Shown piece by piece: positions 1 to 26,107 of a stretch of 35,052 nt of DNA. Numbering within the stretch: the stretch's first letter is position 1; every line of letters begins with the position of its first letter. The notes below the pieces were generated by a model. The model worked only from the letters and a program-made list of their open reading frames with translations. It searched no databases and had not been told where the DNA came from. The translations under genes and the position numbers were made by a program. The DNA is from Nostoc sp. FACHB-280 (lineage in GTDB: Bacteria; Cyanobacteriota; Cyanobacteriia; Cyanobacteriales; Nostocaceae), in assembly GCF_014697615.1 (NCBI RefSeq), contig NZ_JACJSD010000061.1, positions 1 through 35,052 of the forward strand, given 5' to 3'.

Positions 1-65
1 TCCAGTTTTAAGGCTTTTTGTAGTTTCTCTATTTGCTGAGAAGTTAAATGATTTTTTGCTGGCAT
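1..65 (-). CDS. IS630-like transposase, N-terminal start only (runs off window)
   Basis: A minus-strand reading frame opens with ATG at 65 and continues without a stop to base 1. It encodes MPAKNHLTSQQIEKLQKALK. A ribosome site (AAAGGA) lies about five bases before the ATG. The short sequence resembles from memory the N-terminal helix-turn-helix start of IS630-family transposases common in Nostoc (MPAK..L...EK..LQKAL). Only about 21 residues are visible, so no catalytic DDE residues can be checked. It would be transcribed in the same direction as the large gene beside it. It may be an intact insertion sequence, a remnant or an unrelated DNA-binding protein. Confidence 0.5.
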   Translation of the reverse strand, partial: MPAKNHLTSQQIEKLQKALKL

Positions 66-86
66 TATTCCTTTTTTTTACTTAAT

Positions 87-3000
87 TCAGCTTTCTATTA
101 TACACAATTTAAATGCTGAACAGCTTACTCCCAACGGTTCCCCATTCAAAAATACGGCATCTCTGATTTGAGACTGCGGTACTTCTAGGGTCAATCTTCT
201 GTATTCAGTGTCATTAAATTTCTGACTTTGATAATCGTAAGAATTAGTTTTATCAATCTTTATTAAATTCCCATTTGGAGATTCGGCAATCACAAACGCA
301 TTATATTTATCTGATATAGTTGTCAGTTTTAGGTTGAGTGGATTGCCATCTTTAATATAATTTACTGATTGAAGTTGCTTAATCGAATCTGCGTCCAATT
401 CGCCCAGAGTTTTACCATCCAGTTGGATTTTTACTATCCCTGTTGGTACTGGTACTTTACCAATTTCTAGCGTCACAGATTCACCGTTCCATGTCTTAGA
501 AGCGTGGGCAAATTTCTTGATTTCTCTAATCGTAAAATCTATTGGCTCTGTCCCTGTCAGAGAAATTGTGGCATTCGCTGTGTAAGTTTCCCCTGGTAAT
601 AGATTAGCGATGGCCTTTGTACCGATGGGTAATTGTCCTGTTCTTGGTTCCAGTGGCGCGAACTCCTTATATCCCCCATCACCATCCTGGACAAACACTA
701 ATCTTGAGCCGTGGCGTTCATGTTCAGGCGGGTGGTGCGATGCCCTAATTTCAATTGAGCATTTCTCATCCTGATTCCAGGTTTTGCCTTTGAAGTTGTT
801 CGCCTCATTACTCAGCGTTCCCACTCGTAAATTAGTAAATTGCATTTCCCCTAACCGGGAGACAATCTCATCACCAAACGCTGCGAACACAAAGTTGGGA
901 TTTTTTTTGTAAATAGGGTCTTTATTTTGAATTTTGAATTTTGAATTTTGAATTGATTCCAATTCATCCTGTCGTGCCGCCCCAACACTCCACGCTGCCG
1001 CCGCCGCCGAGAGTCGTTCTTGTTCTGGTATGCTTGAGTGAAATTCTTCGGCAAATTTATAAGCTTGCGAAAACATTAGTTTGGTTTGCCCTGGGGTTAA
1101 TTCAGGCTTGAATTCAATCAGCTTCGCGTTCTGTGCCTTATCCCCCGATTTTAGCCCATATTCCTCAATTGATTGGCGGCTGACGATTCCCAGTGGACTG
1201 TACTTGGGTTGACTATTATCGTTAAGCTCGTTGTTGATTTGTGCGATCGCAATTAATTTTGAGGAGTGTTTATCTGTTTCCAACTTCAAGTTGATAGACT
1301 GTGCTTTCCAAATCAGGGGATGCTTGTAGCGTAAAAGATTCGTGATTTCCAGTTTCGTCCCCTGCTGTGTTTGGATGATGGCACTTGGGCCTCTCTCTGT
1401 TTCTCGCCGTCGCTCCATTGCTACTGCGGCGTTGTAGAGTTTGTCGAATTCATATTTAGCAGCGATCACACTAAATCTCTGTTGTGGGGTGAACTCGACC
1501 CCTTTAAATAAATCACCAAATTGAACTATGGGACGTGATTCCAGTTTCGATTCCTGAAAATATTTATTTGTTTGGTTAATTAATAATTCTACTGGCGAGT
1601 AACCCTCAGTTTTTATCCCTGAGTTTAAATAAGCTGTCGGGGATTTTTTATCTTTAATATAATCAACTTGACGATATAAATAACGATTATTTTCTCTAAT
1701 TAAGCCCATTGCTGGTTTTTTAGAACTTTTAAATAAATCTACAGCTATCTGGTTTTGGTAACAAGCCTCCTCAATCATGCTCCTGTACATCAAGCGATTC
1801 TTGTCCATTGCCTGAGAAATAATTTCAGGAGTTCTCTGAGGATTTTGAGACAGAGCTACAACAGATTGTATGTAAGGTTTATATTCTTCCCTAATTAGCT
1901 TAGGTTGTTCATAATTCTCGGCTGCTAATAATTTTTGATAATGTTCTAATACTCGGTCTAAATATTGTGATTTCTGTTCAGGATTTCCGTAGGTTTTTAA
2001 AATTTCTATTTCCGATTCTAATGCTTCTAAAGCAGTCACTTGATTACTAATCACGCCCACGCTGATACTATCGCTCATGTGTATGGCGATTTCTTCAAAT
2101 GGTGGTTGTTTCCCGTTTATATAAAATGATTGTTTCTTTTCTTTGACAGTAGGAAGATAAGCGTTGGCTGGCAGAGTCCTATACTCAGCTTCGGCTGTAA
2201 AATTAGGATACTTACTCGCAAGTGCTACCCCTATACAATCACCATCAAAATCGCGTCCTTGGCGTTGCGATTCGGTTTCTAGGGGGGCTGTTTCATCCGG
2301 TTGAAGTCTTGCTTTGATACGTTCGAGGTCTTCATCATTAACTACTATAATTCCTTCTAAACGTGTCCCGTCTGGAGCTAAACAATCATCAATAATTTTA
2401 TTGGTAGATACACACAAACCATTAGAGTTAAGAAACGGAGAGCGAAAGTTTAAAACTTTCTCTCCGTCATCCAACCAAGGCACACAGATTTCTCCATTCT
2501 TCAAGTCCTTGGATGGAATGATCATCCCTCTATCAAAAGTCAGCGTCCGCCCTAAAGCGATATCTCGCCACTCGCCTTGGACAAATTTACTAAGTTCTTT
2601 CCTCACCTTCTCTGTTTCTAAAAGCTGATTATGCCCTCCAATTAAGTCAGCCTTAATCAGTTTATACATTAAGAAATCATCTTTTTCTGATTTCTCATCT
2701 AAGTCATCACTTGTTTCAAATTTTTCTTCAGCTTGATTAAGAGTAAGTAATTCTAATTGTTTAGAAAGTGAACTATCAGCAATCTGTTCGGAAATCTCTG
2801 CTTTTAAAGATGATTTCTGTTCTTCAGTAAAAGCTTTGCGCTGTTCATACTTCTGACAGTAAAGTTGTGCAACTTTTCTAGGGTCACTTTGGGATTCGGC
2901 TAATTTTTGAGCTTGGGTTTCTAATTCTTCAGCAAAATCTTTAATGCCTTGGGGAAATGATGCCAGTAATTGAGATATCGCTGTTTTACCACGCTCTGAC

Positions 3001-3779
3001 TGTGATTTCTCGCCTAGCCAAATTTTCTGTCTGTACAGTCCTGGCTGAATCTGTGGCTTACTGGGGCCATCAGGGCGATCCTTGTCTGTACCCTTGAAAC
3101 TGGAGAGGGGGAGAATTAAGTCAATTTTCGGTTTATTATTTGAATCTAAATATTCTACATTACTTAAATTATTTGGGCGTAATGTCCCTTTACCAAACCT
3201 GTATTTACTATCTTCTCCATCTTCTTCTCTCCAACCAAAACGATGCTGAATGACACGATAACTTTTGTCTTGCTGTTCTTCCCTTTTAGCTAATTTGTTA
3301 TATAATTGTGTTGAAATTTGCCCATAACAGTCCCCTACTAATTTAAAGGCATCTTCCCTTTTAATTATTCCTCCATTTTCACCCGCTTTAGCTGCTTCTG
3401 AATCATCATTAACCACTAGAATATTTATGGTTTCGTTAATAGAATTCTTACAAGAGCCTAAAAATATTGAGCCGTAAGCCCCTCTATCTTTTCTATCAGG
3501 GCATAACTTATCGATTACTTCTAAACATTCTGGCGAACCATACAGTAATCTGGTTTTAGAAGACAATAAAAGAGTATAGCCATCTGGATGATTTTTTAAG
3601 TCTTCTGGTGTACTATATTCATCTAAATGTCCAAAAGAAAATTCCTTGCCAGGAAAATAAAATTCTAGTAGAGTATTATCCAGCTTTTCAGTTAAAATTG
3701 ATTGAATATTCTTGCTATCTCCGTCAATATGAATCCAAGTATTCAGTCTAGTGTCGAAGTGTTTAAATTCTAAAGTCAT
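87..3779 (-). CDS. Large protein with RNA-polymerase-type double-psi beta-barrel motif (DFDGD)
   Basis: This is a 1230-residue protein. Residues 510-514 read DFDGD inside RQGRDFDGDCIGVA, matching the metal-binding NADFDGDQ loop of the RNA polymerase beta-prime subunit and the DxDGD loop of two-barrel polymerases (phage YonO, eukaryotic QDE-1-type RdRPs). About 60 residues earlier is NFRSPFLNSNG, placed like the 'NRaPtLH' segment of beta-prime, and the stretch after the motif keeps a beta-prime-like 'AEAEYR'. This supports a catalytic barrel that binds Mg2+, so nucleic-acid synthesis is the best guess, but the template and product are unknown. The N-terminal 400 residues are charged and helical with no recognised domain. 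The C-terminal 250 residues look beta-rich. Residues around 943-952 are encoded by four TTTTGAA heptads, a repeat that has invaded the reading frame. The gene stands alone, divergent from the next gene 46 bases away. The motif is seen; the enzymatic role is inferred. Confidence 0.72.
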   Translation of the reverse strand: MTLEFKHFDTRLNTWIHIDGDSKNIQSILTEKLDNTLLEFYFPGKEFSFGHLDEYSTPEDLKNHPDGYTLLLSSKTRLLYGSPECLEVIDKLCPDRKDRGAYGSIFLGSCKNSINETINILVVNDDSEAAKAGENGGIIKREDAFKLVGDCYGQISTQLYNKLAKREEQQDKSYRVIQHRFGWREEDGEDSKYRFGKGTLRPNNLSNVEYLDSNNKPKIDLILPLSSFKGTDKDRPDGPSKPQIQPGLYRQKIWLGEKSQSERGKTAISQLLASFPQGIKDFAEELETQAQKLAESQSDPRKVAQLYCQKYEQRKAFTEEQKSSLKAEISEQIADSSLSKQLELLTLNQAEEKFETSDDLDEKSEKDDFLMYKLIKADLIGGHNQLLETEKVRKELSKFVQGEWRDIALGRTLTFDRGMIIPSKDLKNGEICVPWLDDGEKVLNFRSPFLNSNGLCVSTNKIIDDCLAPDGTRLEGIIVVNDEDLERIKARLQPDETAPLETESQRQGRDFDGDCIGVALASKYPNFTAEAEYRTLPANAYLPTVKEKKQSFYINGKQPPFEEIAIHMSDSISVGVISNQVTALEALESEIEILKTYGNPEQKSQYLDRVLEHYQKLLAAENYEQPKLIREEYKPYIQSVVALSQNPQRTPEIISQAMDKNRLMYRSMIEEACYQNQIAVDLFKSSKKPAMGLIRENNRYLYRQVDYIKDKKSPTAYLNSGIKTEGYSPVELLINQTNKYFQESKLESRPIVQFGDLFKGVEFTPQQRFSVIAAKYEFDKLYNAAVAMERRRETERGPSAIIQTQQGTKLEITNLLRYKHPLIWKAQSINLKLETDKHSSKLIAIAQINNELNDNSQPKYSPLGIVSRQSIEEYGLKSGDKAQNAKLIEFKPELTPGQTKLMFSQAYKFAEEFHSSIPEQERLSAAAAAWSVGAARQDELESIQNSKFKIQNKDPIYKKNPNFVFAAFGDEIVSRLGEMQFTNLRVGTLSNEANNFKGKTWNQDEKCSIEIRASHHPPEHERHGSRLVFVQDGDGGYKEFAPLEPRTGQLPIGTKAIANLLPGETYTANATISLTGTEPIDFTIREIKKFAHASKTWNGESVTLEIGKVPVPTGIVKIQLDGKTLGELDADSIKQLQSVNYIKDGNPLNLKLTTISDKYNAFVIAESPNGNLIKIDKTNSYDYQSQKFNDTEYRRLTLEVPQSQIRDAVFLNGEPLGVSCSAFKLCIIES
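925..952. repeat. Four tandem TTTTGAA heptamers inside a gene
   Basis: Four perfect TTTTGAA units lie head to tail within the coding region of the RNA-polymerase-like protein. Read on the coding strand they give the Asn/Lys/Phe-rich stretch QNSKFKIQN. Similar heptads occur in spacers near 15241, 15331 and 20462. Such short tandem repeats are typical of Nostoc-type genomes; finding one inside an open gene is less common. Its 28 bases are not a multiple of three, so copy-number change would shift the frame. Confidence 0.85.
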
Positions 3780-5162: not shown

Positions 5163-5852
5163 TTAAACAGCTTCTAGATTTTCGCTCCCAGAAATTTCAC
5201 TAAACAGAGATTTGTAATTTATGTAACCCAGACAAATAGCCCGAAAAACTGCATGGGTACGATTTTGCGCTCCCAGCTTGAGGTTGAGTGAATTTGTATA
5301 TCCTCGGATTGAACCAGAGGAAACGTGCAGATTGTCAGCTATTTGCTCATTTGAAAATCCAAAAGCCATCAGTTTAAGAACTTTCATCTCTATTTGAGTT
5401 AAAGATTCCCCAAACTTTTTTCCTTTCCTTAAAGAGTTGCCCTCCTCTTTGATATCTAAGATAGAGCGAGACAGCCTCGGATCTATCCAGCACTGTCCTT
5501 GATAGGACATTTTGATCGCATATAGCAAAATATCTGGCTCTGTATCACTTAGCAGGTAGGAACTCGCACCAGCATTAAAAGCCATCTTGAGTAATCCTTC
5601 ATCTGAGTGCTGGCTTAAAACGACTATTTTGACATCAGGGAACTCTTGATTAATTTCAGTTATCAAGTCAATGCCACTGACATCAGGTAAGTCTATTTTG
5701 AGAATTACAAGATCGGGATGAGTGCCTCTAAGGAGTTGTAAGCCTTGTTCCCCTGAATCCGCTTCCTGCACTTCTATATTTGCGCTCTCTAGAGCTGTCT
5801 TTATTCCCAGGCGTAAAATTGGGTAGTCATCGATTATCAGTACACGCATCAT
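5163..5852 (-). CDS. NarL/FixJ-type response regulator with degenerate receiver domain
   Basis: The 229-residue protein has an N-terminal receiver fold (residues about 3-120) and a C-terminal LuxR-type helix-turn-helix (about 155-220, LTQIEMKVLKLMAFGFSNEQ onwards), so it should bind DNA. The acidic pair D8-D9 is kept. At the phosphorylation site the family pattern is D-x-x-x-P, but here it reads K52-I-D-L-P56, so the acceptor aspartate is lysine. The conserved lysine of 'GYLLKD' is also gone (SYLLSD). Normal phosphorylation is therefore unlikely, and the protein is probably always active, or controlled by binding or abundance. No histidine kinase gene is adjacent. The target is unknown. Confidence 0.85.
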   Translation of the reverse strand: MMRVLIIDDYPILRLGIKTALESANIEVQEADSGEQGLQLLRGTHPDLVILKIDLPDVSGIDLITEINQEFPDVKIVVLSQHSDEGLLKMAFNAGASSYLLSDTEPDILLYAIKMSYQGQCWIDPRLSRSILDIKEEGNSLRKGKKFGESLTQIEMKVLKLMAFGFSNEQIADNLHVSSGSIRGYTNSLNLKLGAQNRTHAVFRAICLGYINYKSLFSEISGSENLEAV

Positions 5853-5886
5853 AATTTTTATGCCTTCAAAAAGCAGGAATGCGGAA

Positions 5887-6006
5887 ACAATTTGTAAGGA
5901 TTCAGAATCCAGAATTCAAAATTAATATTTAGGAATCAAGACATACAAGAAAATAAAATTTCTATTTCAGAGAATCTTACAAATTGTCTACTAATTCTGG
6001 ATTCTG
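5887..6006. repeat. Inverted-repeat spacer element (GAATTCTGGATTCTG family)
   Basis: The 187-base spacer between the regulator and the DUF192 gene holds two inverted pairs. ACAATTTGTAAGGATTC (5887-5903) pairs with GAATCTTACAAATTGT (5972-5987) with one bulge. CAGAATCCAGAATT (5903-5916) pairs perfectly with AATTCTGGATTCTG (5993-6006). The two pairs cross, so they cannot form one simple hairpin and could be alternative folds. A related element is at 34245-34391. Probably a small non-autonomous repeat; a transcription end function is possible. Confidence 0.65.
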
Positions 6007-6039
6007 GGTACTGACTCCTGAATTTTCACAACAATCTTG

Positions 6040-6570
6040 CTAAATTTTATCACCATAACCTGATTCTTGCTGCTTATAAAAAGTTAATTTATCCCGGATT
6101 TTAATATTAGTTAACTTAGCCTTTCCTGAAGGTAGTTCAAGTACATGAGTAGCAATTGGAGCAGTATATAAAGGACAAGGTTGTTTTCGGCAGGGAGTAG
6201 CATTATGTACGATTCTTGTCACTATTCCTTGGTGAATAAATATTATATCGAGGGGAAAATTTACCCTATACATCCAAAACGCCGCATCTTTATAAGGCTT
6301 TCCCAAATTAAACAACATTCCGCGATCACCCTCTAAATGAGAGCGATATTTCAATCCCTTTTCTAATTCGGTTGGCGAATTAGCCGATTCTAAATAAAAG
6401 GTGTGATTATTGCGAGTCAGTTTGTATTTAATTGGCAAATGCTGTGGGCGAGAAGCTAAAAAACTCAGAGTTAAAGTCCCAATTATTACAGATATACCCG
6501 CAATAGAACCTAGTATCCTTAAACCATTGATGGCAGCATAATCTAGTTTTTTTGAGATGAAGAACAACAT
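6040..6570 (-). CDS. DUF192 family protein with N-terminal membrane anchor
   Basis: The product is 176 residues. Residues about 14-40 (GLRILGSIAGISVIIGTLTL) form one membrane segment; the rest would lie outside the cytoplasmic membrane. The remaining ~125 residues match the DUF192 (COG1430) pattern: 'ELEKGLKYRSHL...GMLF', 'FWMYRVNFPLDIIFI', and a terminal 'VLELPSGKAK'. The biochemical role of this family is not established. The ATG follows the TAG stop of the upstream AAA+ gene by two bases (TAGTTATG), so translation is likely coupled and the two proteins may work together. The inverted-repeat element just downstream may end the transcript. Confidence 0.85.
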   Translation of the reverse strand: MLFFISKKLDYAAINGLRILGSIAGISVIIGTLTLSFLASRPQHLPIKYKLTRNNHTFYLESANSPTELEKGLKYRSHLEGDRGMLFNLGKPYKDAAFWMYRVNFPLDIIFIHQGIVTRIVHNATPCRKQPCPLYTAPIATHVLELPSGKAKLTNIKIRDKLTFYKQQESGYGDKI

Positions 6571-6572
6571 AA

Positions 6573-8189
6573 CTAACTAAAAATATTAATATTGCCGTGA
6601 CTGTAAACAGAATCATCAATTGGGCTTGCTGGTAGCCCTTGTAAAGAAGCTCTGTTTCGCATCCTCTCAACTTTGTCCGCCTCTCTAATTGCCAACGGAT
6701 TAATGTTTTGTCTGGCCTCTAATAAGGATGCGACAGTAATTTCTAATCGTGGGAGTGAAGAATGTTGATGAGTGTTCTTATCTCCCCCAAACATCAGACA
6801 GAAAGTTGAAGCTGCGGCTTTTTCAACAATAGCTCCGATTTCTGCGCCGACACAACGATAGGTTTCTTTTAAGAGTCTGCGCCATTGTTCTTCACTATAA
6901 GCATCCCCACCATTACGAAAACGCTCATCAAATCTTGCCAAGTGGATTTTGAATATTTCGTGTCTTTCGCCGTTATTAGGTAAATCTACTTTAAAGATGT
7001 CATCAAACCTTCCACATCTGGTCAGTTCTGGCGGCAGTAGTTCTAGATTGTTAGCCGAGGCAATAATTAAGACATTACTCGTTCGCTCTTGCATCCATGT
7101 CAATAGCATTCCTGCAAGTCTTCTGCCTAAGTCATCGTCTCCCGCAAAGCCCTTGTCAAAATCGTCCAAATAGAAGATAAGTCGGTCTATTCTATCTACC
7201 AACGCTAGTAGTTTTTTGAGCTTAAACTCGGCTTGATTTCCGTAACTGCGGAAGTTGCCCCACTCCACAATCATCATTGGTATACCCAGCAATTGAGAAC
7301 AGACTTTAGCCGAGTAAGATTTTCCGGTTCCAGGTGGGCCAATCAGCAGAACACCTTTTGGAATCCGCAGATTATAGGCTTGTGCTAGTGGAGTCATTAG
7401 TTGTTTATACTTCAGGAATGACTCTTGCATCAATTCTAGCCCCCCTACTTTGATCGACGGGGACTGGAGAAATTCTACGTGATAAACCCGCTTTAATAGG
7501 TTGATTTTGTAAGCCAATAGGCATTTAGTCAATATTAACGGCTCAAACACACCAGAAGCAATTATTTGTTTAATACCATATTCGATATCTGCAATGTACA
7601 ATCCTACAGCCGCGATCGCTGCTTTATCAATTTCTGAAGCATCATATTCTGGTAATAGTTTTTTTAAACAGCTTCTAATTTCTAGAATGGTTGGCAGTTG
7701 GTGAGTAATACTCGGAACAAACGCCGCAATATCTGGCAATATACTAGCGTTCGGCCCTAACAGCAGGACAGCTTTATTAGAATTAGAATTGTGCAGTTTG
7801 ATGTTGATGAGTGCTGACTTAATCCACTCGCTAGTCAGAAATTCAGAATTAGTGGTTAGCCAAGAAAATATCCCTTCTAGTATAAGAATACCTTGTAAGT
7901 CCGTGAATTTCCAAAAGCGCAGGATTTCAAAATAATGTTCCTGTCGAGATTTATCTTTAATAGGTTGATACTCATTAACATTAGAAAATGTAATCTTTCC
8001 TAAACTAATTTTTAATTGATACAATTGGTCATCCTCCAGCGACCACAAATAACATTTGATATTTTGTAACTCGCATTCAACAGCAATCTGGAACAAAAGT
8101 TTTTGTCGCTCTTGCAAGGGTGATTCTAGAGATATTATTGGATGTTGTAGGTTAATTAATCTAAAAACTTGCTCAATTAAATCCTTCAT
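6573..8189 (-). CDS. Ycf46-like AAA+ ATPase
   Basis: The 538-residue protein has an N-terminal region of about 250 residues similar in layout to Ycf46 (PIISLES..., ILEGIFSWL..., KAVLLLGPNASILPDI). A C-terminal AAA+ module follows: Walker A GPPGTGKS at 284-291, Walker B with D342-D343 in FYLDDFDKG, a sensor-1 'SANN' and an arginine-rich 'TRCGRFDD' second-region-of-homology segment. ATP binding and hydrolysis are therefore well supported; the substrate to be remodelled is unknown. Chromosomal Ycf46 relatives in cyanobacteria have been linked to regulation of photosynthesis, but a plasmid copy may have another job. It is coupled to the DUF192 gene, and its start codon overlaps that of the divergent gene at 8188. 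Confidence 0.82.
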   Translation of the reverse strand: MKDLIEQVFRLINLQHPIISLESPLQERQKLLFQIAVECELQNIKCYLWSLEDDQLYQLKISLGKITFSNVNEYQPIKDKSRQEHYFEILRFWKFTDLQGILILEGIFSWLTTNSEFLTSEWIKSALINIKLHNSNSNKAVLLLGPNASILPDIAAFVPSITHQLPTILEIRSCLKKLLPEYDASEIDKAAIAAVGLYIADIEYGIKQIIASGVFEPLILTKCLLAYKINLLKRVYHVEFLQSPSIKVGGLELMQESFLKYKQLMTPLAQAYNLRIPKGVLLIGPPGTGKSYSAKVCSQLLGIPMMIVEWGNFRSYGNQAEFKLKKLLALVDRIDRLIFYLDDFDKGFAGDDDLGRRLAGMLLTWMQERTSNVLIIASANNLELLPPELTRCGRFDDIFKVDLPNNGERHEIFKIHLARFDERFRNGGDAYSEEQWRRLLKETYRCVGAEIGAIVEKAAASTFCLMFGGDKNTHQHSSLPRLEITVASLLEARQNINPLAIREADKVERMRNRASLQGLPASPIDDSVYSHGNINIFS

Positions 8190-8754
8190 GGAAAACCGTC
8201 CTTGTTATCCCATCATACTGATTCCTCAAGGTGTTAAAGTCGGCAATTTAGAGCCGATAATCTTACCTTCAAAATCAACCGAAAGCACAAAGCTAGGTGC
8301 TTCTGAGATTGAGTTTGGCTTGATACTGCGAAAGTATTTTGACCCTCAGATTTTTTCTCAACAACAGTTGCTACCTTTGAACCATAAAGCCGCTTACAGT
8401 GCCGATTTTCTGTTCGTGGAACCAAATACAAACTTGCACATTGACTTAGAGATTGATGAACCATTTACTTTTGAAACTCGTGAACCAATCCACTGTGTAG
8501 GCATGGATGACTACCGGAACCAGTGCTTTGTTCAAGCCAACTGGATTGTTCTTCGTTTTGCTGAAGAACAGGTGAAAAGTCAACCGCTACGATGTTTACG
8601 CGTACTGGCTAATATTATTTACCAGTACACATATAATGACGCTTGGCAGTTGTTATTCAAAGATGTTGAAAAACTTACTCCTTTATGGCAATGGACTACT
8701 AAAAAATCTCGTAAACTTTCAAAAGATAACTATCGCAATCGTTATCTTAATTAG
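8188..8754 (+). CDS. Putative PD-(D/E)XK-fold protein
   Basis: The product is 188 residues, starting MENRPCYPIILIPQG. The middle reads YSADFLFVEPNTNLHIDLEI, then DEP, and later 'RNQCFVQANWIVLRFAEEQV'. This has the arrangement of DUF559/Vsr-like nucleases of the PD-(D/E)XK superfamily: D before a strand, then E-x-D, then R...W.VLRF.EEQ. The usual Lys of the E-x-K motif is not present (EID), as in DUF559-like members, so catalysis is uncertain. The frame is open back to 8056, but that stretch is antisense to the AAA+ gene, so ATG 8188 is chosen. Its ATG and that of the divergent AAA+ gene overlap in CATG, so each gene's promoter must lie inside the other's coding region. Confidence 0.62.
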   Translation: MENRPCYPIILIPQGVKVGNLEPIILPSKSTESTKLGASEIEFGLILRKYFDPQIFSQQQLLPLNHKAAYSADFLFVEPNTNLHIDLEIDEPFTFETREPIHCVGMDDYRNQCFVQANWIVLRFAEEQVKSQPLRCLRVLANIIYQYTYNDAWQLLFKDVEKLTPLWQWTTKKSRKLSKDNYRNRYLN

Positions 8755-8895
8755 GATGTGGTGTATAAGGTGTAGCGTAAGTCAAAAATACTTTCGGTTT
8801 TTACATTCCATTGATTAAGTAATTTAAAGCTCCTCCCTTTACTAGTGAAAAAATTAATCTTATTTCGCAATGATTACCCTACACCCTACACCCTT
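8754..8895. repeat. Inverted-repeat spacer element (GGGTGTAGGGT family), copy A
   Basis: The spacer between the PD-(D/E)XK-like gene and the small membrane-protein gene is bounded by GGTGTATAAGGTGTAGCGTAA on the left and ACCCTACACCCTACACCC on the right, which are imperfect inverted repeats. No gene was seen inside. A second, better-preserved copy lies at 16243-16419. Both sit between convergent genes. Probably a miniature inverted-repeat element, perhaps acting as a bidirectional transcription barrier. Confidence 0.62.
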
Positions 8896-8902
8896 TTCAT
8901 TT

Positions 8903-9244
8903 TCACTTCTGAATAGATTTCGGTGGTAATTGATTTAAGAGATTGGCTGATGGATTTTGAACTTTAGCCAAGAATATAATCATCCCTAAAATAGCAAAAG
9001 CCGTAATAATTACCCTTTGTACAGTTTCAAAGGTTTGCCTCTCTTTTGTTTGGCCGTAATAAATTTTGTTCCAATACTGGTCATTGTTACTATTTTGAAA
9101 GTATTCAAGTGCCTGAATCGTCCCTGTTACATCTTCTCCTCGTTGCGCTTTCTCAACCAGAAGCATTTCTAGATTCTCTACTTGGTTTACAGTCGGCTTT
9201 ATAACTTTCGGTTTGTCCCACGACGCAATCGTTTGTTGCAACAT
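8903..9244 (-). CDS. Small membrane protein, last gene of the ParM-like operon
   Basis: From ATG 9244 the product is 113 residues (MLQQTIASWDKPK...). The first ~75 residues are hydrophilic and probably helical. One membrane segment follows near residues 83-98 (VIITAFAILGMIIFLA), then a short Pro-rich tail. The frame extends upstream to a TTG at 9352, but that codon lies inside a perfect hairpin and has no ribosome site, so the internal ATG is preferred with modest confidence. The gene follows the segregation-type operon on the same strand. The family is not recognised. It may anchor a neighbour to the membrane, which is inference from position only. Confidence 0.6.
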   Translation of the reverse strand: MLQQTIASWDKPKVIKPTVNQVENLEMLLVEKAQRGEDVTGTIQALEYFQNSNNDQYWNKIYYGQTKERQTFETVQRVIITAFAILGMIIFLAKVQNPSANLLNQLPPKSIQK

Positions 9245-9326
9245 ACTGGTTGATACAGAAAGAAAATTATGTAAATTGTACGGACTTCTGCTGCTAATTA
9301 CATCCAGCGAAACGCTATTGTTTGAG

Positions 9327-9359
9327 TGACATTTTGCAGCGAAATACTGCAAAATGTCA
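9327..9359 (-). other. Perfect 13-bp stem-loop at the operon junction
   Basis: TGACATTTTGCAG (9327-9339) and CTGCAAAATGTCA (9347-9359) are perfect inverted repeats around a 7-base loop. The stem includes the TGA stop of the upstream gene and covers the alternative TTG start of the downstream gene. No T-run follows, so it is not a classic intrinsic terminator. It may mark an mRNA processing site, slow downstream translation or bind a protein. Confidence 0.75.
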
Positions 9360-9731
9360 TAAATCTAGTTCCATTTGTCGTGAAGTTTTGCATATTTGCG
9401 GACGGCTATCTACTCCAAACGGGTCAGTATCATCCTCAAAAAGCTCTTGGGATAAGCTTCTGCCGTCTTTGTCAAGATCGCTATTGAGAATGTGGTCTAT
9501 CACATAAAGAGGCATTCCCTTTTGTAGAGAATAGCTCAAGAGATTTTTTACAAACTCTGGTGTGGCCTCATTATGCTTGAGTACTTCTATCAAGCAATTA
9601 CCTTGTTTCACGGTTGTTTGTGGAAGATTATTAATCCCGGCATCTTGACAAACCGCTCCAAAAATTTGCACTATGCGCTCATCAAAGTGCTGTTGGTTGG
9701 CGAATTGTGCCAGTTTTTCAGTTTTATTCAT
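9357..9731 (-). CDS. Small protein with thrombospondin type 3/EF-hand-like calcium loop
   Basis: The product is 124 residues with no signal peptide. The first ~85 residues are helical with no recognised domain. Near the C-terminus DLDKDGRSLSQE fits the 12-residue DxDxDGxxxxxE calcium loop, and the continuation LFEDDTDPFGVD fits the 'D.DGDG.sD..E...TDP...D' pattern of thrombospondin type 3 repeats. Those repeats are usually in secreted proteins, so a cytoplasmic one within a plasmid-segregation-type operon is odd. Its ATG overlaps the stop of the ParM-like gene (ATGA), so it is probably made with that protein and may regulate or bind it. The motif is seen; calcium binding and the partner are inferred. 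Confidence 0.72.
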   Translation of the reverse strand: MNKTEKLAQFANQQHFDERIVQIFGAVCQDAGINNLPQTTVKQGNCLIEVLKHNEATPEFVKNLLSYSLQKGMPLYVIDHILNSDLDKDGRSLSQELFEDDTDPFGVDSRPQICKTSRQMELDL

Positions 9732-10963
9732 GAGGGTGAAGATGAAGAAGGAGAATCAACCAGCATCGGTAAAAAGTTTTTCCAGCGATCTGGGTGGCAA
9801 CGTTGAACTGTGTTAACTGGTTTAGCTGGTTGGGGGATTAAAGGTTGCTGGCGGTGATACCTGAAATTCATATCCAACATATTGATGTAATTGATATGTG
9901 AACCCCAAACATCAGCTAACCTATTACCTAATTTATGAATATCTAGAGTAGCAGGTATATCTACTCCACCGTTCCAAACAATAAGTATTGTTTCTTTTTC
10001 AAAAAACTGGGTCAATTCAGGGCGAACAAATTCTCCTGTACCGCCACACAGAAGAACTTCATCTACAGATGCAATAGTTCTTATCCATCTAAGTAATGCG
10101 CGGCAATACTCCCGACGCACAAGTTTTAAGGCCTTTTGAAACAAAGTTAAGTCAGACTCTATATCAGAAGATTTGGTTTTGCGTGATAATGACCGCAATG
10201 CTTCAACATTTCCTAGATTTGCTTTTACTAAAGCTAATGGTATACATAAATCATTTTTAGATAGCCCTACAGATGCCTGTTCCACAAATCTTTCCACCAA
10301 CCAATTCATTCCCAAATCTGTGGATTCAGCTTTAATTTGGTTTTTGCCTTTAACTATAGTAAAGCTGGCATTGCGATAACCCAACATCAGCATTCCTATT
10401 GTTCTTGTAGAATAAGCTTCTCCCAAAGTGCGTCGGCGGGCTGCTAAAACACCAGACCCTTCTATTGAAACTACGAAATTGCACGGTTTGAGCTTTAATC
10501 TACCTGTTGGTGTGTTAATTCCCGCTTTTAGTGCTGCTGACAACTGTTTGCCTAAATTTTTACCATCTCTGTATTCATTGGAAGGCAGTAACAAATGTAG
10601 AAAAACATCAGCTTCTTCCAAACCCAATTTTTGGCAAGCGAACCAAAGTAACCCTGCCAGCTTAGGTACAGCATATTGATATTTTAAGTCTCGGATTGCT
10701 GATGTCCCGGCAAATTTATTTTTAGCCAAACTACCCAAGGCATAGTATTCGGAGCCTATACCTACCCATGTGGCATCACTAGTTAGAGGGTCAACGTCTA
10801 GCCCAACAACAGATTCTCTTTCCACATCTGCCACTTCTGGAGTCATAGTAATGACCTGCGGCGTGGCATCTGGATAGATTTGGGCCACTATCTTAATCAA
10901 ACTCGCTCCCAAATCACAAGTTAAAACGAGCTTTGTGGCATCAGAGTTATCTTTGTCAATCAT
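9728..10963 (-). CDS. ParM/StbA-like actin-type ATPase (plasmid segregation)
   Basis: The product is 411 residues. It has actin-fold phosphate-binding motifs: phosphate-1 near residue 15-25 (TCDLGASLIKIV), a second phosphate loop region IGMLMLGYRNASF at mid-length, and an adenosine motif VLLCGGTGEF near 300. ParM-type proteins form ATP-driven filaments that push plasmid copies apart. The gene lies between a possible ParR-like gene (ATGA overlap upstream) and the calcium-loop gene (ATGA overlap downstream). Direct repeats upstream of the operon could be the centromere. It could instead be a different actin-like family member; filament formation is inferred from the family. Confidence 0.8.
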   Translation of the reverse strand: MIDKDNSDATKLVLTCDLGASLIKIVAQIYPDATPQVITMTPEVADVERESVVGLDVDPLTSDATWVGIGSEYYALGSLAKNKFAGTSAIRDLKYQYAVPKLAGLLWFACQKLGLEEADVFLHLLLPSNEYRDGKNLGKQLSAALKAGINTPTGRLKLKPCNFVVSIEGSGVLAARRRTLGEAYSTRTIGMLMLGYRNASFTIVKGKNQIKAESTDLGMNWLVERFVEQASVGLSKNDLCIPLALVKANLGNVEALRSLSRKTKSSDIESDLTLFQKALKLVRREYCRALLRWIRTIASVDEVLLCGGTGEFVRPELTQFFEKETILIVWNGGVDIPATLDIHKLGNRLADVWGSHINYINMLDMNFRYHRQQPLIPQPAKPVNTVQRCHPDRWKNFLPMLVDSPSSSSPS

Positions 10964-11394: not shown

Positions 11395-11460
11395 AAATTT
11401 TCAGCTAAGTATAGCTGTCCGAAAGTTTACATTTATTGTACTTGGATTTTTTGGCGGTAA

Positions 11461-11581: not shown

Positions 11582-11590
11582 ATCGCTCAA

Positions 11591-11754
11591 AAATCGGGTT
11601 TTCGGGTAGTTTAGGATAAAGGTGTACTCACTTTACTTTCGCGCCCTTCGGGGTGGCTTCGCCATTCCTCGCTTCGCTCGGAACGCAAAAGTAGTTCGCC
11701 CTGCCGGGAGCGCGGAAGTTGTTCAAAGACACTCGTTGCAGCGAGAATAAATCA
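11591..11754 (+). other. Noncoding control region before the relaxase, candidate oriT
   Basis: Together with the repeats this is a 360-base gene-free stretch (11395-11754). This part is noticeably GC-richer than its surroundings. It contains an imperfect dyad: CTTTCGCGCCCTTCGG near 11633 against CCGGGAGCGCGGAAG near 11704. Smaller dyads include AAAGGTGTACTCACTTT (11619-11635) and TTCC/GGAA around CGCTTCGCTC. Origins of transfer often lie directly upstream of the relaxase gene and contain such dyads. No exact MobV nick consensus could be identified, so the oriT call is inference. The relaxase promoter should also lie here. Confidence 0.4.
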
Positions 11755-13542
11755 ATGGTAGCGTTAGCAATACTACGAGTCGAGAAATTAAAATCATTCG
11801 GGAATATTGGGGGAAGTGAAAAACATACTGCCCGACTTCAGGATACTCCCAATGCAGATCCAACAAAACAAAATATTCGATTGATTGGATCAAAAGATGA
11901 GAGATCGCTCGAATCAGTCGTCAAAGAACTGATAAAATCAAAGACAAACTACCAGCCCAGAAAAGACGCAGTGCTGTGCAGTGAAATATTTTTGAGTGCA
12001 AGTCCAGAATACTTTCGACCCGATGACCCATCAATGGCGGGTACTTGGGACAATCAGAAGATGGAGGATTTTACGAATGCTTCCCAAAAATGGCTGTTAG
12101 AAAAATATGGAAATAAGTGTGTCAGAGCCGAATTGCACTTGGATGAATCGACCCCACACATTCATGCCTATATCGTGCCACTCAACGAAAAAACCAAACG
12201 ACTTAGTTATAAGGAAATGTTTGGCGGTTCTGTGGCACAGGGACGACTGAAAATGTCACAACTTCAAGATAGTTATGCGCTTGCACTTGCTCCTTTAGGC
12301 ATTCAACGGGGAGTTAAAGGCTCAAAAGCTAAACATATCCAGATTCAAGAATATTATCAGGCGGTCAATTCTCAACCCCTGAGTTTGGAGTTAGAACGAT
12401 TTGCACCTTTACCAGGAGAAACAGCCCATGAGTTGCTTGAGCGCATTAAGAAAGACCGACGCATCCAACAATTAGATCACCAATTAGCTGACCGTCGCCG
12501 AATTACCCAGTTGGAAAAACGGGCTTCTTTATCATCAATAGCCTCAGAGAAACTTCGACAGAATTTAGAAACACGCGTAGTTCAACTAGAACAGGAGAAT
12601 TTAGAATGGCGACAAAAAGCTGATTTAATGCGCGACTTACCTTTGGCTGATGTGGCTTGGGCGTTAGGTTTAGATTGTATTGATGGGCGATGGAAGGGCT
12701 ATGGACACATCATTAGTATAGATGAGTCGAAGTTCTATGATTTTTCACCTGATCAGCAGAAGGGTGGCGGCGGTGCGATTGATTTGGTCATGCACGTACA
12801 GAGGTGCAATTTCACAAGGGCGATCGCGTGGTTATATGAATCATCTGGCAAAACCGGAGTCCAAAAAGCAGCGATCGCGCACTCACTAAATCTGACAAAT
12901 GAGATTATTCACTCTCAACCCTGCCCTAAATTCCAGCAACCAGTTGAGGATAAAGCCCACTGGTCAGAAGTTGCTCAATATTTAACGACTAAACGGGGTA
13001 TCCCACCAAATCTTGTACAAGCTCTTTATTTACGGGGCTTAGTTTATGCTGATGCTCATCAAAATGCTGTATTTGTCATGCGAAATTTCAATGACCAAAC
13101 TAATGGTGCGTTTTTGAGAGGGACGAAGGGGGAGAATAACACTTTCAAGGGCTACCACAAAGGTACAAAGCGCAGTGATAGCTGGTTTTACTTTTACTTA
13201 GGAGGACAAGCTCAAGGTAAGGTAGAAAGAGCAGTATTGTGTAAATCTCCGATTGAGGCATTATCATTCGCCACGCTCGAATTGAAAGCCTATAAAGAAA
13301 TACCGCCACAAAGAACAATGTATTTAGCAGTAGATAATCCCAAAAGTCTACCAGTAGATTTTCTTTCAAGAGTTCCGGTAGTAGAAATGGCATTTGATAA
13401 TAATGTTTGGGGGCATGAAACTGCCCTGACTATTCAGAAGCTGTTGAAGGACGCAACTACTCTCAGAACTAAAGCCAAAGGTAAAGATTGGAATGAACAA
13501 CTTGTCCAAAAACTTTCGTCACAGCAGGATATTGAAATCTAA
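11755..13542 (+). CDS. MobV-family relaxase fused to a DUF3991/TOPRIM-like primase module
   Basis: The product is 595 residues from ATG 11755; a TTG at 11719 would add 12 residues, but MobV homology starts only just after the ATG. Residues 4-40 (LAILRVEKLKSFGNIGGSEK, then HTARLQDTPNADP) match the MobV/Pre N-terminal motif. The metal-binding motif HLDESTPHIH is at 128-137. This domain nicks the plasmid at oriT and carries the strand into the recipient. After a coiled region (about 240-290), residues 298-360 (DVAWALGLDCIDGRWKGYGH... GGGGAIDLVMHVQ) and 400-590 match the primase-type DUF3991/TOPRIM arrangement. In the TOPRIM part the expected Glu is K497 (CKSPIEALS) and the DxD is D548-N-N, so the active site looks altered. 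Two HIP1 sites lie in the gene. Confidence 0.88.
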   Translation: MVALAILRVEKLKSFGNIGGSEKHTARLQDTPNADPTKQNIRLIGSKDERSLESVVKELIKSKTNYQPRKDAVLCSEIFLSASPEYFRPDDPSMAGTWDNQKMEDFTNASQKWLLEKYGNKCVRAELHLDESTPHIHAYIVPLNEKTKRLSYKEMFGGSVAQGRLKMSQLQDSYALALAPLGIQRGVKGSKAKHIQIQEYYQAVNSQPLSLELERFAPLPGETAHELLERIKKDRRIQQLDHQLADRRRITQLEKRASLSSIASEKLRQNLETRVVQLEQENLEWRQKADLMRDLPLADVAWALGLDCIDGRWKGYGHIISIDESKFYDFSPDQQKGGGGAIDLVMHVQRCNFTRAIAWLYESSGKTGVQKAAIAHSLNLTNEIIHSQPCPKFQQPVEDKAHWSEVAQYLTTKRGIPPNLVQALYLRGLVYADAHQNAVFVMRNFNDQTNGAFLRGTKGENNTFKGYHKGTKRSDSWFYFYLGGQAQGKVERAVLCKSPIEALSFATLELKAYKEIPPQRTMYLAVDNPKSLPVDFLSRVPVVEMAFDNNVWGHETALTIQKLLKDATTLRTKAKGKDWNEQLVQKLSSQQDIEI

Positions 13543-20569: not shown

Positions 20570-22342
20570 CTAAAGCATTGATCTCATCCCATCAACGGGT
20601 AATGCTTCTACTCCTGCTTCTACTGGTTCTTGGGGAATAGGCAAGCGGCGATCTACTTCTTTTATTCTGATATCTAAGTCTTGCTGTGTTGGATATTTTT
20701 GAGTGCTATGCAGTGCCAGATTTTTTACTAGCTTTTGCCATTTTTTTTGATTATATTTTTCAGTATTGTCTGCATAATCACCAATTTTTATCGTTTTTAA
20801 CAACGGCACTGAACCTTCCTCTTTATTGGCATACGCCGGATTAATGAATACACATTTACCAGCAGGTAACTTTAAGAATTGCGCTGATTCAAATAACTTT
20901 TTAGTTTTTTCTTGTTCACTGGTTGTTGTACTTGGTTTACCGCCACCCGTTGACCTACTCTTGTGCTTGTACTTAATTTCTTCATCACCGAGGAAGCTGG
21001 AGAATAATTGTGCTGATTCATTTTCACCAGGATTAAATACAAACTTAGTGCTACAAGCCCCCAAGATAGTTTTCGCTACTTCTTTACCGTAGTTCTTTTC
21101 TAACTGCCCCATATTCTGCCACCCCAAAATTCCGCAGAATCCTTCACTTCGTGACTCATTCAGCCATCTATATAAATCCGGCAAATAAATCGACGGTAAT
21201 TCATCTAAGGCAACAATTAATGGCCCAGAGTCCACTCGTTTAGAAGCAATATTCCGCGCTATTGTCATGTGTAAAATGCTCGTCATTAAAGGAGCTACAG
21301 CATCACGGCGTTCTCTATCCAGCCCAAAGATAATCATCTGCTTTCGCTTAATTTCTAACGGCAGAGTAGTTTTACCCACAAAACACCCCAGCGTATTTTT
21401 CGCCATAAAACGAGTGAACATTAAGCTGGCGGTCGCTGTAATCCCTGCCACCGTCTTTTCAGAAGCCGCAGAACTGAACAGTTGACCGAACGCTATCCTA
21501 ATCCAGGGATTTAGTGATGCCCCCATCAGTCGGTTAATCATTTGTTCGCTAGAAAGAATGGCCGCCGCAGTCATTATGTCTGCATATTCCCCAAACTCTT
21601 TAGTCAGCATCAATATCGCTTGGGTCAGTTGATCCCCTGACGGGCCAAAAAATCCATCTTCACTGGCGTTAGTTAATATTCGGAAATTCTTGTTAATTAC
21701 TGTTGCTAATTGCCTTGCTGTTTCCGCATCAGACGAATCTCTTAAAAAGTCCAGCGGGTTGCATACTTCTGATTCAGGGAACCCAGGAGCAAATATGTGT
21801 ACATCATACCCCTTTAATCGGGCATACGCCGCAATTTTAGCTTGTGACGCATACTTAAAATCGTATAATACAATCCCAAACCCTTGGTCAATTGCTGAAT
21901 ATATCATCGGGTTGATTGCACTATAAGTTTTACCACTTCCCGGTGCGCCAATCGCTGCTGTTCCCCTTTGGGCATCTGGTATGTATAAAGGGATTACATT
22001 GCTTTGCCGTGGGGCTTTTGAATCTTTAAATCGATGCTGCCCAATGTATAATGCTGCACTATCACATTTGGGATTAGCTATTTGTTGAAGTGCTTTTTTC
22101 TTGGCTGTAGCAATTTCTTTACTTCCCCCCCAATAAGAAGTGGCTATTTTCTTTTTCTTCGAGCCATCTCCTAACACCACTTTCATTACCAGATAAACCC
22201 CTAATGCCCCTAATAGTGCTAATCCATTAGGTGTGAGAAAGTGATGTGTATACTTGCCAACATCATGGTTGGGGTTTTGTAATTGCTCAACACGAAATAG
22301 TTGATTATCATTAATCAACTGTGATTGAGTATTATTTCTCAT
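20570..22342 (-). CDS. virD4: VirD4/TraG-type coupling protein
   Basis: The product is 590 residues with one N-terminal membrane helix (about 37-56, LTPNGLALLGALGVYLVM). Walker A GAPGSGKT is at 132-139 and Walker B LIVALDELP with D380-E381. The LGWQNMGQLEKNYG and 'STKFVFNPGENESAQLFSSF' segments are typical of the TraG/TraD C-terminal part, with a Ser/Gly/Thr-rich insert (about 478-495). Such hexameric ATPases bring the relaxase-DNA complex to the secretion channel. Family members often have two N-terminal helices; here only one is clear. It is the last channel-linked gene in the row and is followed by the pseudo-relaxase. The symbol marks family membership, not orthology. Confidence 0.92.
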   Translation of the reverse strand: MRNNTQSQLINDNQLFRVEQLQNPNHDVGKYTHHFLTPNGLALLGALGVYLVMKVVLGDGSKKKKIATSYWGGSKEIATAKKKALQQIANPKCDSAALYIGQHRFKDSKAPRQSNVIPLYIPDAQRGTAAIGAPGSGKTYSAINPMIYSAIDQGFGIVLYDFKYASQAKIAAYARLKGYDVHIFAPGFPESEVCNPLDFLRDSSDAETARQLATVINKNFRILTNASEDGFFGPSGDQLTQAILMLTKEFGEYADIMTAAAILSSEQMINRLMGASLNPWIRIAFGQLFSSAASEKTVAGITATASLMFTRFMAKNTLGCFVGKTTLPLEIKRKQMIIFGLDRERRDAVAPLMTSILHMTIARNIASKRVDSGPLIVALDELPSIYLPDLYRWLNESRSEGFCGILGWQNMGQLEKNYGKEVAKTILGACSTKFVFNPGENESAQLFSSFLGDEEIKYKHKSRSTGGGKPSTTTSEQEKTKKLFESAQFLKLPAGKCVFINPAYANKEEGSVPLLKTIKIGDYADNTEKYNQKKWQKLVKNLALHSTQKYPTQQDLDIRIKEVDRRLPIPQEPVEAGVEALPVDGMRSML

Positions 22343-23804: not shown

Positions 23805-24563
23805 TCAAAACTTTGTCAACCTTGGCTTAATGTATTCTCGATTCTGGATTCTTGCATTCTCTCCCATTAAAGTTAATTTATTAACTAGTTCCATTGAAAC
23901 AATAGCCTTATCAGCTGCCGCAGCTAGGTCATCACCTTGTTGTAAATAAGTAATCAATTTTTGCAGACGTTGATGTAATTCATCATCAGGGTTAAGCCAT
24001 TTATTTCTAATAGCTATAGCCAGACCATTCCTGAGACTGTTAACTGTTTTAATCGTGGTGACTAATGGTTGTAGTTGAGGACGTGGTTCTTTCTTACTAT
24101 CAACATCATTACTAATTACAACTTGGCTGTATTTAGGAGTGCCGTTAGCAATTGCCAAACGAAAACTGTAAGCCTTACGCTCACCCGTTGATGATTGTGT
24201 TACCACCGTTAACAAAGTTGTTGATGCTTGCGGTAAACCAGGGATGTTGACTTTTTTAATCCGCCGCAGATGAATTAGTCCCGCACCTGGATTTTGGCAA
24301 TTTTGGTTGAGCCCTTCTAAACAACCATCTGTATCAACCAAGATTTGTGACGGGTCATCTAACCAGACTCGTTGTATCCTTTCCCCTACTTCATAAAATG
24401 AGATTGCTATACCATGACCATTCCAGACGTTGATAGTTTGGAGTAGGGCAGTTTCACCCGATGCTTGCGATTGCCTAATGGTACGAACTACTGGTGCGGC
24501 AAGGGTCATTACTGGACTAAGACAAACAAGCGCACTCATCCAGCCAATAATGATGTTTTTCAT
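23805..24563 (-). CDS. VirB9/TraK-like periplasmic channel component
   Basis: The product is 252 residues with a clear signal peptide (MKNIIIGWMSALVCLSPVMTLAA). Residues 40-160 follow the VirB9/TraK pattern: WNGHGIAISFYEVGERIQRV with 'DDPSQILVDTDG', then 'TTLLTVVTQSSTGERKAYSF', a beta-rich domain with a glycine-containing strand before 'Y.F.L'. The C-terminal ~80 residues are helical. In known systems VirB9/TraK joins VirB10/TraB in the outer core of the channel. Its ATG overlaps the TGA of the VirB10-like gene (24560-24563), which supports co-assembly. No VirB7/TraV lipoprotein was seen. Confidence 0.75.
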   Translation of the reverse strand: MKNIIIGWMSALVCLSPVMTLAAPVVRTIRQSQASGETALLQTINVWNGHGIAISFYEVGERIQRVWLDDPSQILVDTDGCLEGLNQNCQNPGAGLIHLRRIKKVNIPGLPQASTTLLTVVTQSSTGERKAYSFRLAIANGTPKYSQVVISNDVDSKKEPRPQLQPLVTTIKTVNSLRNGLAIAIRNKWLNPDDELHQRLQKLITYLQQGDDLAAAADKAIVSMELVNKLTLMGENARIQNREYIKPRLTKF

Positions 24564-26107
24564 GGCAACTCCAGGCTACGGTTAACGATAAAAGTAACTT
24601 TCGTTCCTTGTGGAATGTGCCAAACATTCGGTCGCGCCAGTATTTCTTGGGAGGCTCGTGAAGCGCGATCGCTTACAATATCGCCTAGCTTGTCAAATGC
24701 TCCTTCTAAAAATGCACCACCGAGATTACGTCGATTGTTTTGTGTTACCGCACTGCTAAAGCTGCCAATAGTAGAATTGTGGATTGTACTTTGGCTATCT
24801 GGCTGATTGATAATCTCACCAACCTTGGCAAGTCCCCCAACTAATCCCACCGTTATGTCGTAAGATGCGATCGCACCACCTTTGTCTTGAAATTTTTTAG
24901 CAATTAGGGGTTTTCCCTTTTCTCCCTGTACAGAAATTGCACCAGCAGTTAGAGGATATTCCGTATTATCTTTGATAATGCTCCGAACATTGGCAGTTGC
25001 ATAGTTCCCGCCATCAACTCCTACCAATTCCACTGCAAGTAATGTACCCTTTGGAATGGCTACTTCACCATAATTGTCACGAAAGTCTTGGGTTAACTTG
25101 GCAACAAAACGCCTACCATCTTCAGTTTGTTCCTGGTTATTTTTGCTGTCCGTTTGTTGTTGGACTAGTGGTGTAACTAGGATACCAGTGGCGAATTCAC
25201 CCACACTCAGGTAACGAGTTTTATGTTCTGTAAGGATTTGGCTTTCTTGCGGTAGGTAGTTATTGGCTATAAGTTTTTTGTCAACTTTAGATTCCACTTG
25301 CCACCGTGGGCGGATTTTTTCAATCCTATTAGATGTGTTTTCTTCTGTAATACTGGATGTAGGCTCACTATCAATATCTATGGGTTGGGGTTGCACCTGA
25401 TTTGTTTGCAATGATGAGGTGTCTGCCGGATCTAGTAAGGTCGATTCACTTACCGAACTATCCGCATAAGCTATCAATCCGTATGAACCAATAGAACGTA
25501 GTCGGTTAAATTCATCAATAGGGTCTACAGTTTTTTGTACTCTTGTAATACTGGGATTACTGACTCTCGGCAGCACAAAACTACGTCTTTGTGCTATTTG
25601 GGGACGAGTTACTGGCTGATACCTCCGGGGTGATGAATAGGTCACGGGTGGTGTTGGCCTTGAAGGCATTTGCGCCGCAGATGGTTCTCTCTGTATAGGT
25701 TTTGCGCTTTTAGCTTCTGGCTGCGCTTTAACTGACAATTTTTCTTTTTGTTGTTTGATTTTATCTAACTCTTCTTGTTGTTTTGACAGCGCCAACTGTG
25801 CATAAATGTCGCCATCTTTATTTTCAGCAGATGGCGTTAATTGTGCTGATTTATCTTGAGTCTTTGTTTCGGGTTTATTAACGCTCGAATGCCCATTGAT
25901 GATGTTGTTAAACATCAAATAGAAAATCAAAAATCCTATTCCCAATGGCACACCGATTATTCCTATCCTTGACCAAGGAGATGTTACTACCGTGTGTTGA
26001 GTTAATAATTCTTCATCTTCTATCTCGGCTTTTTGATTACTACTTATTTCTGATGGTTCATCGTCAAGCTTTAATATTTCATCTACTGTTAATGGGTTTT
26101 CACTCAT
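24560..26107 (-). CDS. virB10: VirB10/TraB/TrbI-like channel protein
   Basis: The product is 515 residues. It has an acidic cytoplasmic N-terminus (1-43), one membrane helix at about 46-66 (IGIIGVPLGIGFLIFYLMF), a long Gln/Lys/Pro-rich periplasmic linker (80-190), and a C-terminal TrbI/VirB10 domain: 'GEFATGILVTPLV', 'AIPKGTLLAVELVGVDGG', an alanine/glycine-rich stretch with the antenna-like region and final IPQGTKVTFIVNRSLEL. This family spans the envelope and forms the channel core. Start and stop overlap neighbours (1 base with the VirB8-like gene, 4 bases with the VirB9-like gene), so the three should be produced together. The symbol denotes family. Confidence 0.88.
   Translation of the reverse strand: MSENPLTVDEILKLDDEPSEISSNQKAEIEDEELLTQHTVVTSPWSRIGIIGVPLGIGFLIFYLMFNNIINGHSSVNKPETKTQDKSAQLTPSAENKDGDIYAQLALSKQQEELDKIKQQKEKLSVKAQPEAKSAKPIQREPSAAQMPSRPTPPVTYSSPRRYQPVTRPQIAQRRSFVLPRVSNPSITRVQKTVDPIDEFNRLRSIGSYGLIAYADSSVSESTLLDPADTSSLQTNQVQPQPIDIDSEPTSSITEENTSNRIEKIRPRWQVESKVDKKLIANNYLPQESQILTEHKTRYLSVGEFATGILVTPLVQQQTDSKNNQEQTEDGRRFVAKLTQDFRDNYGEVAIPKGTLLAVELVGVDGGNYATANVRSIIKDNTEYPLTAGAISVQGEKGKPLIAKKFQDKGGAIASYDITVGLVGGLAKVGEIINQPDSQSTIHNSTIGSFSSAVTQNNRRNLGGAFLEGAFDKLGDIVSDRASRASQEILARPNVWHIPQGTKVTFIVNRSLELP

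Follow-up and report, generated by a model that had tools for sequence, protein, structure and literature searches.

What kind of protein is encoded by the long open reading frame (ORF) that runs to one end of a 35,052-base contig of the cyanobacterium Nostoc sp. FACHB-280? The window analysed here is this complete contig (C72 of a 7.64-Mb assembly in 113 contigs), and the ORF, at positions 87-3779, lies on the minus strand and comprises 1230 amino acids counted from its ATG. An earlier note, made from the DNA letters, had read it as a plasmid-borne single-chain protein with an RNA polymerase catalytic motif. The frame is present as proposed there, its strand having been left unstated, and the segment on which the proposal centred, RQGRDFDGDCIGVA, was found in the translation, with DFDGD at residues 510-514. 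We take this loop to resemble the beta-prime motif of multi-subunit RNA polymerases. The comparisons described below make it likely that the gene, which is carried on a conjugative element, encodes, or encoded before it was truncated, an RNA polymerase of the YonO/QDE-1 kind with two barrels in one chain.

Single-chain two-barrel polymerases connect the cellular RNA polymerase with the polymerases of RNA silencing. To our knowledge, tests of such enzymes are few. New enzymes for the question of minimal transcription would come from a plasmid family whose active site is intact, whose tails are modular and whose hosts can be cultured; such a family would also suggest that plasmids carry a transcription or priming engine of their own. 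In titles and abstract openings we recognised no description of a cyanobacterial plasmid polymerase family, and existing surveys may include it. A passage of PMC7824862 mentions YonO and NCGL1702-like RNA polymerases of mobile elements, and polymerases of the N4 type are treated in part of PMC5512222.

The predicted active site is conserved across the family

Among genome contigs, 109 stretches matched the search pattern, 100 of them encoded relatives, and 80 loci were kept (L001-L080). From these, 60 spanning ORFs were counted, i.e., ORFs covering the query from residue 60 or earlier to residue 1000 or later; partial or broken ORFs of the other loci were left uncounted. All 60 carried D[FY]DGD together with KGT and S[SA]FKG, so that these motifs are kept beyond chance. 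In a 29-row alignment (A1) with identities as low as 18%, D150, Q178, R180, K197, G198, K229, G247, D378, P448, D510, D512, G513, D514, K549 and G575 are among the invariant columns. This alignment excludes the degenerate locus L106 and the split locus L089, and L007 and L028 are absent from it owing to wrong neighbouring ORFs. A DxDxD triad of the YonO/QDE-1 kind is therefore present throughout the spanning ORFs and the 29 rows, preceded in the chain by two basic residues, K197 and K229. The earlier note had asked whether homologs keep the three Asp and whether a second barrel with a conserved Lys exists; the triad is kept but for one degenerate paralog, and the two invariant lysines are placed as candidates for such a barrel. 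In a larger, 61-row alignment, 32 rows (L116-L147) had been chosen by the pattern D.DGD, which makes Asp counts there circular, and five genes are entered twice (L117/L145, L118/L134, L119/L146, L121/L143 and L122/L138); the unbiased count is that of the 60 spanning ORFs. Two flanking segments had also been described as placed as in beta-prime. Both FRSPFLNSNG (residues 445-454) and AEAEYR (529-534) are present, and P448 of the former is invariant, but AEAEYR is kept less well, being partially conserved in closer relatives and having no invariant or near-invariant position among the 29 rows.

The dN/dS ratio relative to six relatives was 0.097-0.135 (dS exceeded 1 for three of them); by this measure the gene is under purifying selection. 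The degenerate paralog, on a plasmid of Leptolyngbya boryana (L106:3806-6580), carries FGGD instead of DFDGD, and its lysines are lost. This paralog, and the truncation of the FACHB-280 gene described below, would suit a two-barrel relic that has no polymerase activity and serves as a nucleic-acid binder or regulator. That every spanning ORF keeps the three Asp and the two lysine motifs speaks against such a relic, as do the dN/dS values, and we regard it as highly improbable.

The family profile matches that of YonO

YonO, the single-chain DNA-dependent RNA polymerase of the Bacillus phage SPbeta, was compared with the family by hhalign, with 61 aligned family rows (47 retained by the program) on one side and seven aligned YonO-type sequences on the other. 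The two profiles matched over 429 columns with a score of 89.6 (Prob 96.3, E 1.7e-9). The reversed target scored 18.2, and 30 column shuffles scored at most 20.3; both kinds of control used the full family profile only, with realignment switched off. The profile-profile check that the earlier note had called for thus exceeds its shuffled controls by far, and homology to YonO is established at the level of the family. The aligned pairs (family/YonO) include SSFK/SQFK, RSP/RSP, DFDGD/DNDGD, GVISN/GEYSN and VDLFKS/IDFAKT, and the aligner paired K229 with the lysine of YonO SQFK. When the DFDGD loop was masked, the score was 60.6 (Prob 85.5), and the catalytic side alone, from residue 421 on, gave 61.6 (Prob 89.2), so that the likeness extends beyond the Asp motif. 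The link to YonO ran through subfamily A4 (A4 versus YonO, Prob 90.5), to which subfamily A2, that of the window protein, was joined with Prob 100; A2 versus A5 gave Prob 99.2.

The proteins agree in the order of S..K, RSP, DxDGD and VDxxK, and in being single polypeptides of mobile elements. They differ in that identity is 15-16% (hhalign), that YonO has 839 amino acids whereas the 60 spanning relatives have 1566-3255 and end in variable tails, and that the family resides on cyanobacterial plasmids. Passages of PMC5467207 describe YonO as preferring a DNA template, and report that changing the three Asp to Asn abolishes RNA extension.

Library matches of the relatives and the choice of template

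The earlier note had held that the flanks of the motif match nothing. This stood for library searches with the window protein, and not for searches with the family. The Pfam family RdRP (PF05183) was reached by L087 with 25.2 bits against a cut-off of 23.8; it was present in 7 of 292 genomes of the phylum (five of them over the cut-off) and in none of 14 control genomes. PHROG 4291, annotated as 'RNA-dependent RNA polymerase', matched 5 of the 29 members at E<=0.1 (best E 6.2e-11), and PHROG 8308, which YonO itself matches with 1220 bits, matched three of the 29 at the same threshold (best E 0.0015). RNA_pol_Rpb1_2 was seen in one of 29 relatives (E 0.12). The conserved Asp and Lys, the YonO match and these RNA-dependent RNA polymerase (RdRP) matches in some relatives all favour the RNA polymerase proposed in the earlier note. 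The weak Pfam matches SUKH_5 and NAPRTase_N were judged spurious, NCBIfam gave no meaningful match, and entire long relatives had weak Pfam matches at most.

QDE-1 and the cell-encoded RdRPs of eukaryotes (PF05183) resemble the family in that some members exceed the cut-off around the catalytic loop; they differ in that the window protein is unmatched, and no RNA-silencing gene, dicer-like or Argonaute-like, was recognised by Pfam among 20 window ORFs. The protein could nevertheless read RNA instead of DNA and, as an RdRP, produce double-stranded RNA that might serve in defence or counter-defence, since the named families matched by some relatives are RdRPs, and QDE-1 accepts both RNA and single-stranded (ss) DNA (PMC2950127, in part). 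The same part of that paper reports a much higher activity of QDE-1 with ssDNA than with RNA, robust on ssDNA and not on double-stranded DNA, and the family aligns to YonO, whose strong preference for DNA templates is noted in part of PMC5467207. Together with the lack of a recognised silencing gene among the 20 window ORFs, this leads us to consider an RdRP quite unlikely, and by analogy DNA is probably the template of the proposed polymerase.

A fold search made with the AlphaFold2 model of residues 90-700 (the model of residues 1-850 was not used for it) leaned toward RNA polymerase, short of proof. From this weak model, the first-ranked viral model was an 'RNA dependent RNA polymerase' (E 0.006, prob 0.95), and the first-ranked solved chain was chain C of a tobacco PEP-PAP entry (E 0.063), which we take to be the plastid RNA polymerase. 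RNA polymerase II stood at ranks 13 and 17 of the solved chains, and the RNA polymerase gp96 of P23-45 at rank 2, with a non-significant E of 0.22, again from the weak model. Like the proposed protein, gp96 is one two-barrel polypeptide, as described in part of PMC10770324; it differs in coming from a phage and in being fused to a tape measure protein.

A terminal repeat truncates the gene

The earlier note had overlooked that the 3′ end of the ORF is truncated. Homology of the relatives ends at residue 1218 of the window protein, which is where a repeat at positions 1-127 begins. The repeat also stands at the start of contigs C76, C65, C41 and C1, and occurs in C76, C29, C27, C30 and C95. On contig C105, positions 10607-11725 hold a 362-residue match, with 70% identity, to the tail of L001, and this match adjoins a 34-base partial copy of the repeat (11721-11754). 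We infer that the repeat is an insertion element, or that the assembly broke at one.

Observations that weigh against a polymerase

Several observations weigh against the two-barrel polymerase and set the limits of the assignment. Searched alone, the window protein had no match in Pfam, one weak irrelevant match in PHROG and nothing relevant among PDB sequences; it falls short of the curated cut-off of PF05183, and for all the likeness of DFDGD to beta-prime it matches no beta-prime Pfam family at E<=10. PDB searches with profile A1 gave no hits, and those with A4 and P0005 gave noise. YonO itself has no PDB sequence match, no Pfam match and no match to PHROG 4291. PF05183 was seen in just 2 of 29 members at E<=1, and FACHB-280 is absent from the seven genomes that carry it. 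The AlphaFold2 models were weak (pLDDT 52.6 for residues 1-850 and 61.3 for residues 90-700), the fold search made with the latter gave no match below E 0.001, and its RNA polymerase rows had a TM-score of at most 0.19 and an rmsd of 12-25 Å.

The YonO signal was likewise uneven. It is strong on the catalytic side; the lysine side alone (residues to 420) is weaker, with a score of 40.2 (E 0.00094, Prob 22.4), but above the full-profile shuffles. The aligner paired KGT with no lysine of YonO, and we read WVKG of YonO, by eye, as its probable counterpart. Neither the window subfamily A2 alone nor A5 reached YonO (Prob 0.2 each), while A4 did, and the connection is a family-level one. Comparison by hhalign with the single YonO sequence failed, and succeeded with the seven-sequence YonO profile and the enlarged family. 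Finally, the FACHB-280 gene is truncated after its core, though the same strain carries a second copy on contig C35, an open paralog of 2584 amino acids.

The family is plasmid-centred and has variable tails

By tblastn, 79 plasmid records had relatives at E<=1e-5, and in 58 of them a single place accounts for 80% or more of the query; 37 of the 79 were typed as conjugative, 15 as mobilizable and 27 as non-mobilizable. The named relatives are all cyanobacterial, the closest being from Nostoc, and the family profile was present in 32 of 292 genomes of the phylum, with at most two candidates scored per genome. Chromosome-size contigs carry copies too, beyond 3 Mb (G064:C1:4107312 and G091:C3:3222711). 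Annotated relatives in plasmid and genome records were mostly labelled 'hypothetical protein'. Intact homologs include L100, of 1216 amino acids, on Stanieria cyanosphaera plasmid pSTA7437.01, and L112, of 2581 amino acids, on plasmid C of Trichormus variabilis ATCC 29413. Short distant members of 787-884 amino acids (L105 and L107) bear both motif sets, and a plasmid of Cyanobacterium aponinum (L089) has the short form in two ORFs, with the lysine motifs in 5659-6525 and the Asp triad in 7718-9475.

In 30 tails scanned, the domains found at E<=0.001 were cpYpsA (SLOG) in five, SF1 helicase (AAA_19/AAA_30/PIF1) in two and RNase H in one; most tails had no named domain. The 3246-residue ORF L046:6001-15741 combines the polymerase-like core with an SF1 helicase (AAA_19, 1.9e-25) and a cpYpsA SLOG domain (2.1e-31). 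The record label 'ribonuclease H' was upheld for L110:5902-13410, where RNase H is fused (E 8.9e-33), and was unsupported by Pfam for L084. Tail guesses of AlkB, macro and NADAR were unconfirmed (2OG-Fe(II) E 0.078, macro E 0.047, NADAR no match). A minority of relatives (30 tails) recall the polyvalent proteins that conjugative elements and phages encode, in being large proteins of mobile elements whose enzyme domains vary; the family is unlike them in that their RNA polymerase module is of the N4/T7 type, according to part of PMC5512222, and the truncated window copy is the core alone.

There are hints of phage, prophage or phage-plasmid members. PHROG 34895, of unknown function, was matched by 12 of 29 members (best E 1.6e-68), which suggests phage or prophage relatives, although direct phage searches gave almost none: scans of viral contigs with P0001, P0006, L108 and A4 found 0 relatives, and phage records yielded one weak match in an Erwinia phage (E 0.2, residues 493-559) and none with L108 as the query. 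An IMG/VR contig found with profile A5 carries a short-form relative (L123:5001-7628).

Proposed mechanism and role

The setting of the gene is that of a conjugative element: in the window, Pfam recognised a relaxase, a coupling protein and a TrbI-like protein, along with a ParA-like ATPase and the terminal part of a RecD-type helicase. The first three bear out the plasmid or mobile location supposed in the earlier note. For the protein, we would place the first double-psi barrel at residues ∼170-250, where it would contribute the basic K197 and K229, and the second at ∼380-560, where D510, D512 and D514 would bind the catalytic magnesium ions. The segments near G575 (residues 560-590, bridge-helix-like as judged by position) and at 675-690 may contact template and nucleotide in the manner of the bridge-helix region. 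Since YonO and QDE-1 provide the analogy, the enzyme may join ribonucleotides on the DNA of its own plasmid, for transcription or priming, most plausibly at stages of replication or transfer in which that DNA is single-stranded. Work on single-stranded plasmid DNA would be compatible with the conjugative setting and with the helicase and RNase H fusions, although these are rare.

Two narrower roles can be considered. The protein might act as a primase in conjugation or replication and synthesise short RNA primers on plasmid DNA in its single-stranded form, like the Toprim primases of plasmids, with the fused helicase or RNase H assisting in some members. The relaxase and type IV secretion genes of the window and the helicase and RNase H tails (2 and 1 of 30) agree with this, and part of PMC5512222 deals with TraC1 and SogL, plasmid primases that are transferred. 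Such fusions are few, however; the non-mobilizable plasmids and the copies on chromosome-size contigs argue the other way, and YonO transcribes late phage genes (PMC5467207, in part), so that we think a primase rather unlikely. It is a comparably doubtful, more speculative idea that the two-barrel polymerase is coupled to conjugation and, during transfer, uses single-stranded plasmid DNA to make the earliest transcripts or primers, ahead of host enzymes and with helicase, RNase H or SLOG fused in some members, as a plasmid counterpart of injected virion RNA polymerases.

Features of the window

Coordinates of the putative polymerase gene, its segments and other features of the 35,052-base window
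Feature	Positions	Strand	Basis or remark
Repeat cutting the polymerase gene	1..127		Tail match at C105:10607-11725
Truncated gene, putative single-chain two-barrel RNA polymerase	87..3779	-	1230 aa; last ∼12 aa from the repeat
Residues 675-690, QIAVDLFKS, aligned to YonO FTIDFAKT	1710..1757	-	D681 and K684 near invariant
Residues 560-590, invariant G575, aligned to YonO GEYSN	2010..2102	-	Conserved column, YonO alignment
Putative second (catalytic) barrel region, residues 380-560, RSP 446-448	2100..2642	-	Conserved columns, YonO profile alignment
DFDGD, residues 510-514, putative catalytic metal-binding loop	2238..2252	-	
Putative first (basic) barrel segment, residues 170-250, invariant K197 (KGT) and K229 (SSFKG)	3030..3272	-	
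Divergent ORF beside the polymerase gene, 207 aa	3751..4374	+	Similar ORF in 52 of 93 family loci compared
Relaxase, Mob_Pre and DUF3991	11719..13542	+	Pfam
Type IV coupling protein, TrwB/TraG type	20570..22342	-	Pfam
TrbI-like conjugation protein	24560..26107	-	Pfam

The divergent ORF next to the polymerase gene had no match in a Pfam scan; it is possibly a partner or regulator. Positions 13615-15241 hold two overlapping genes, the first ParA-like (CbiA) and the second without a Pfam match. Within the conjugation region, 17293-19947 encodes an 884-residue protein with DUF3854 (Pfam).

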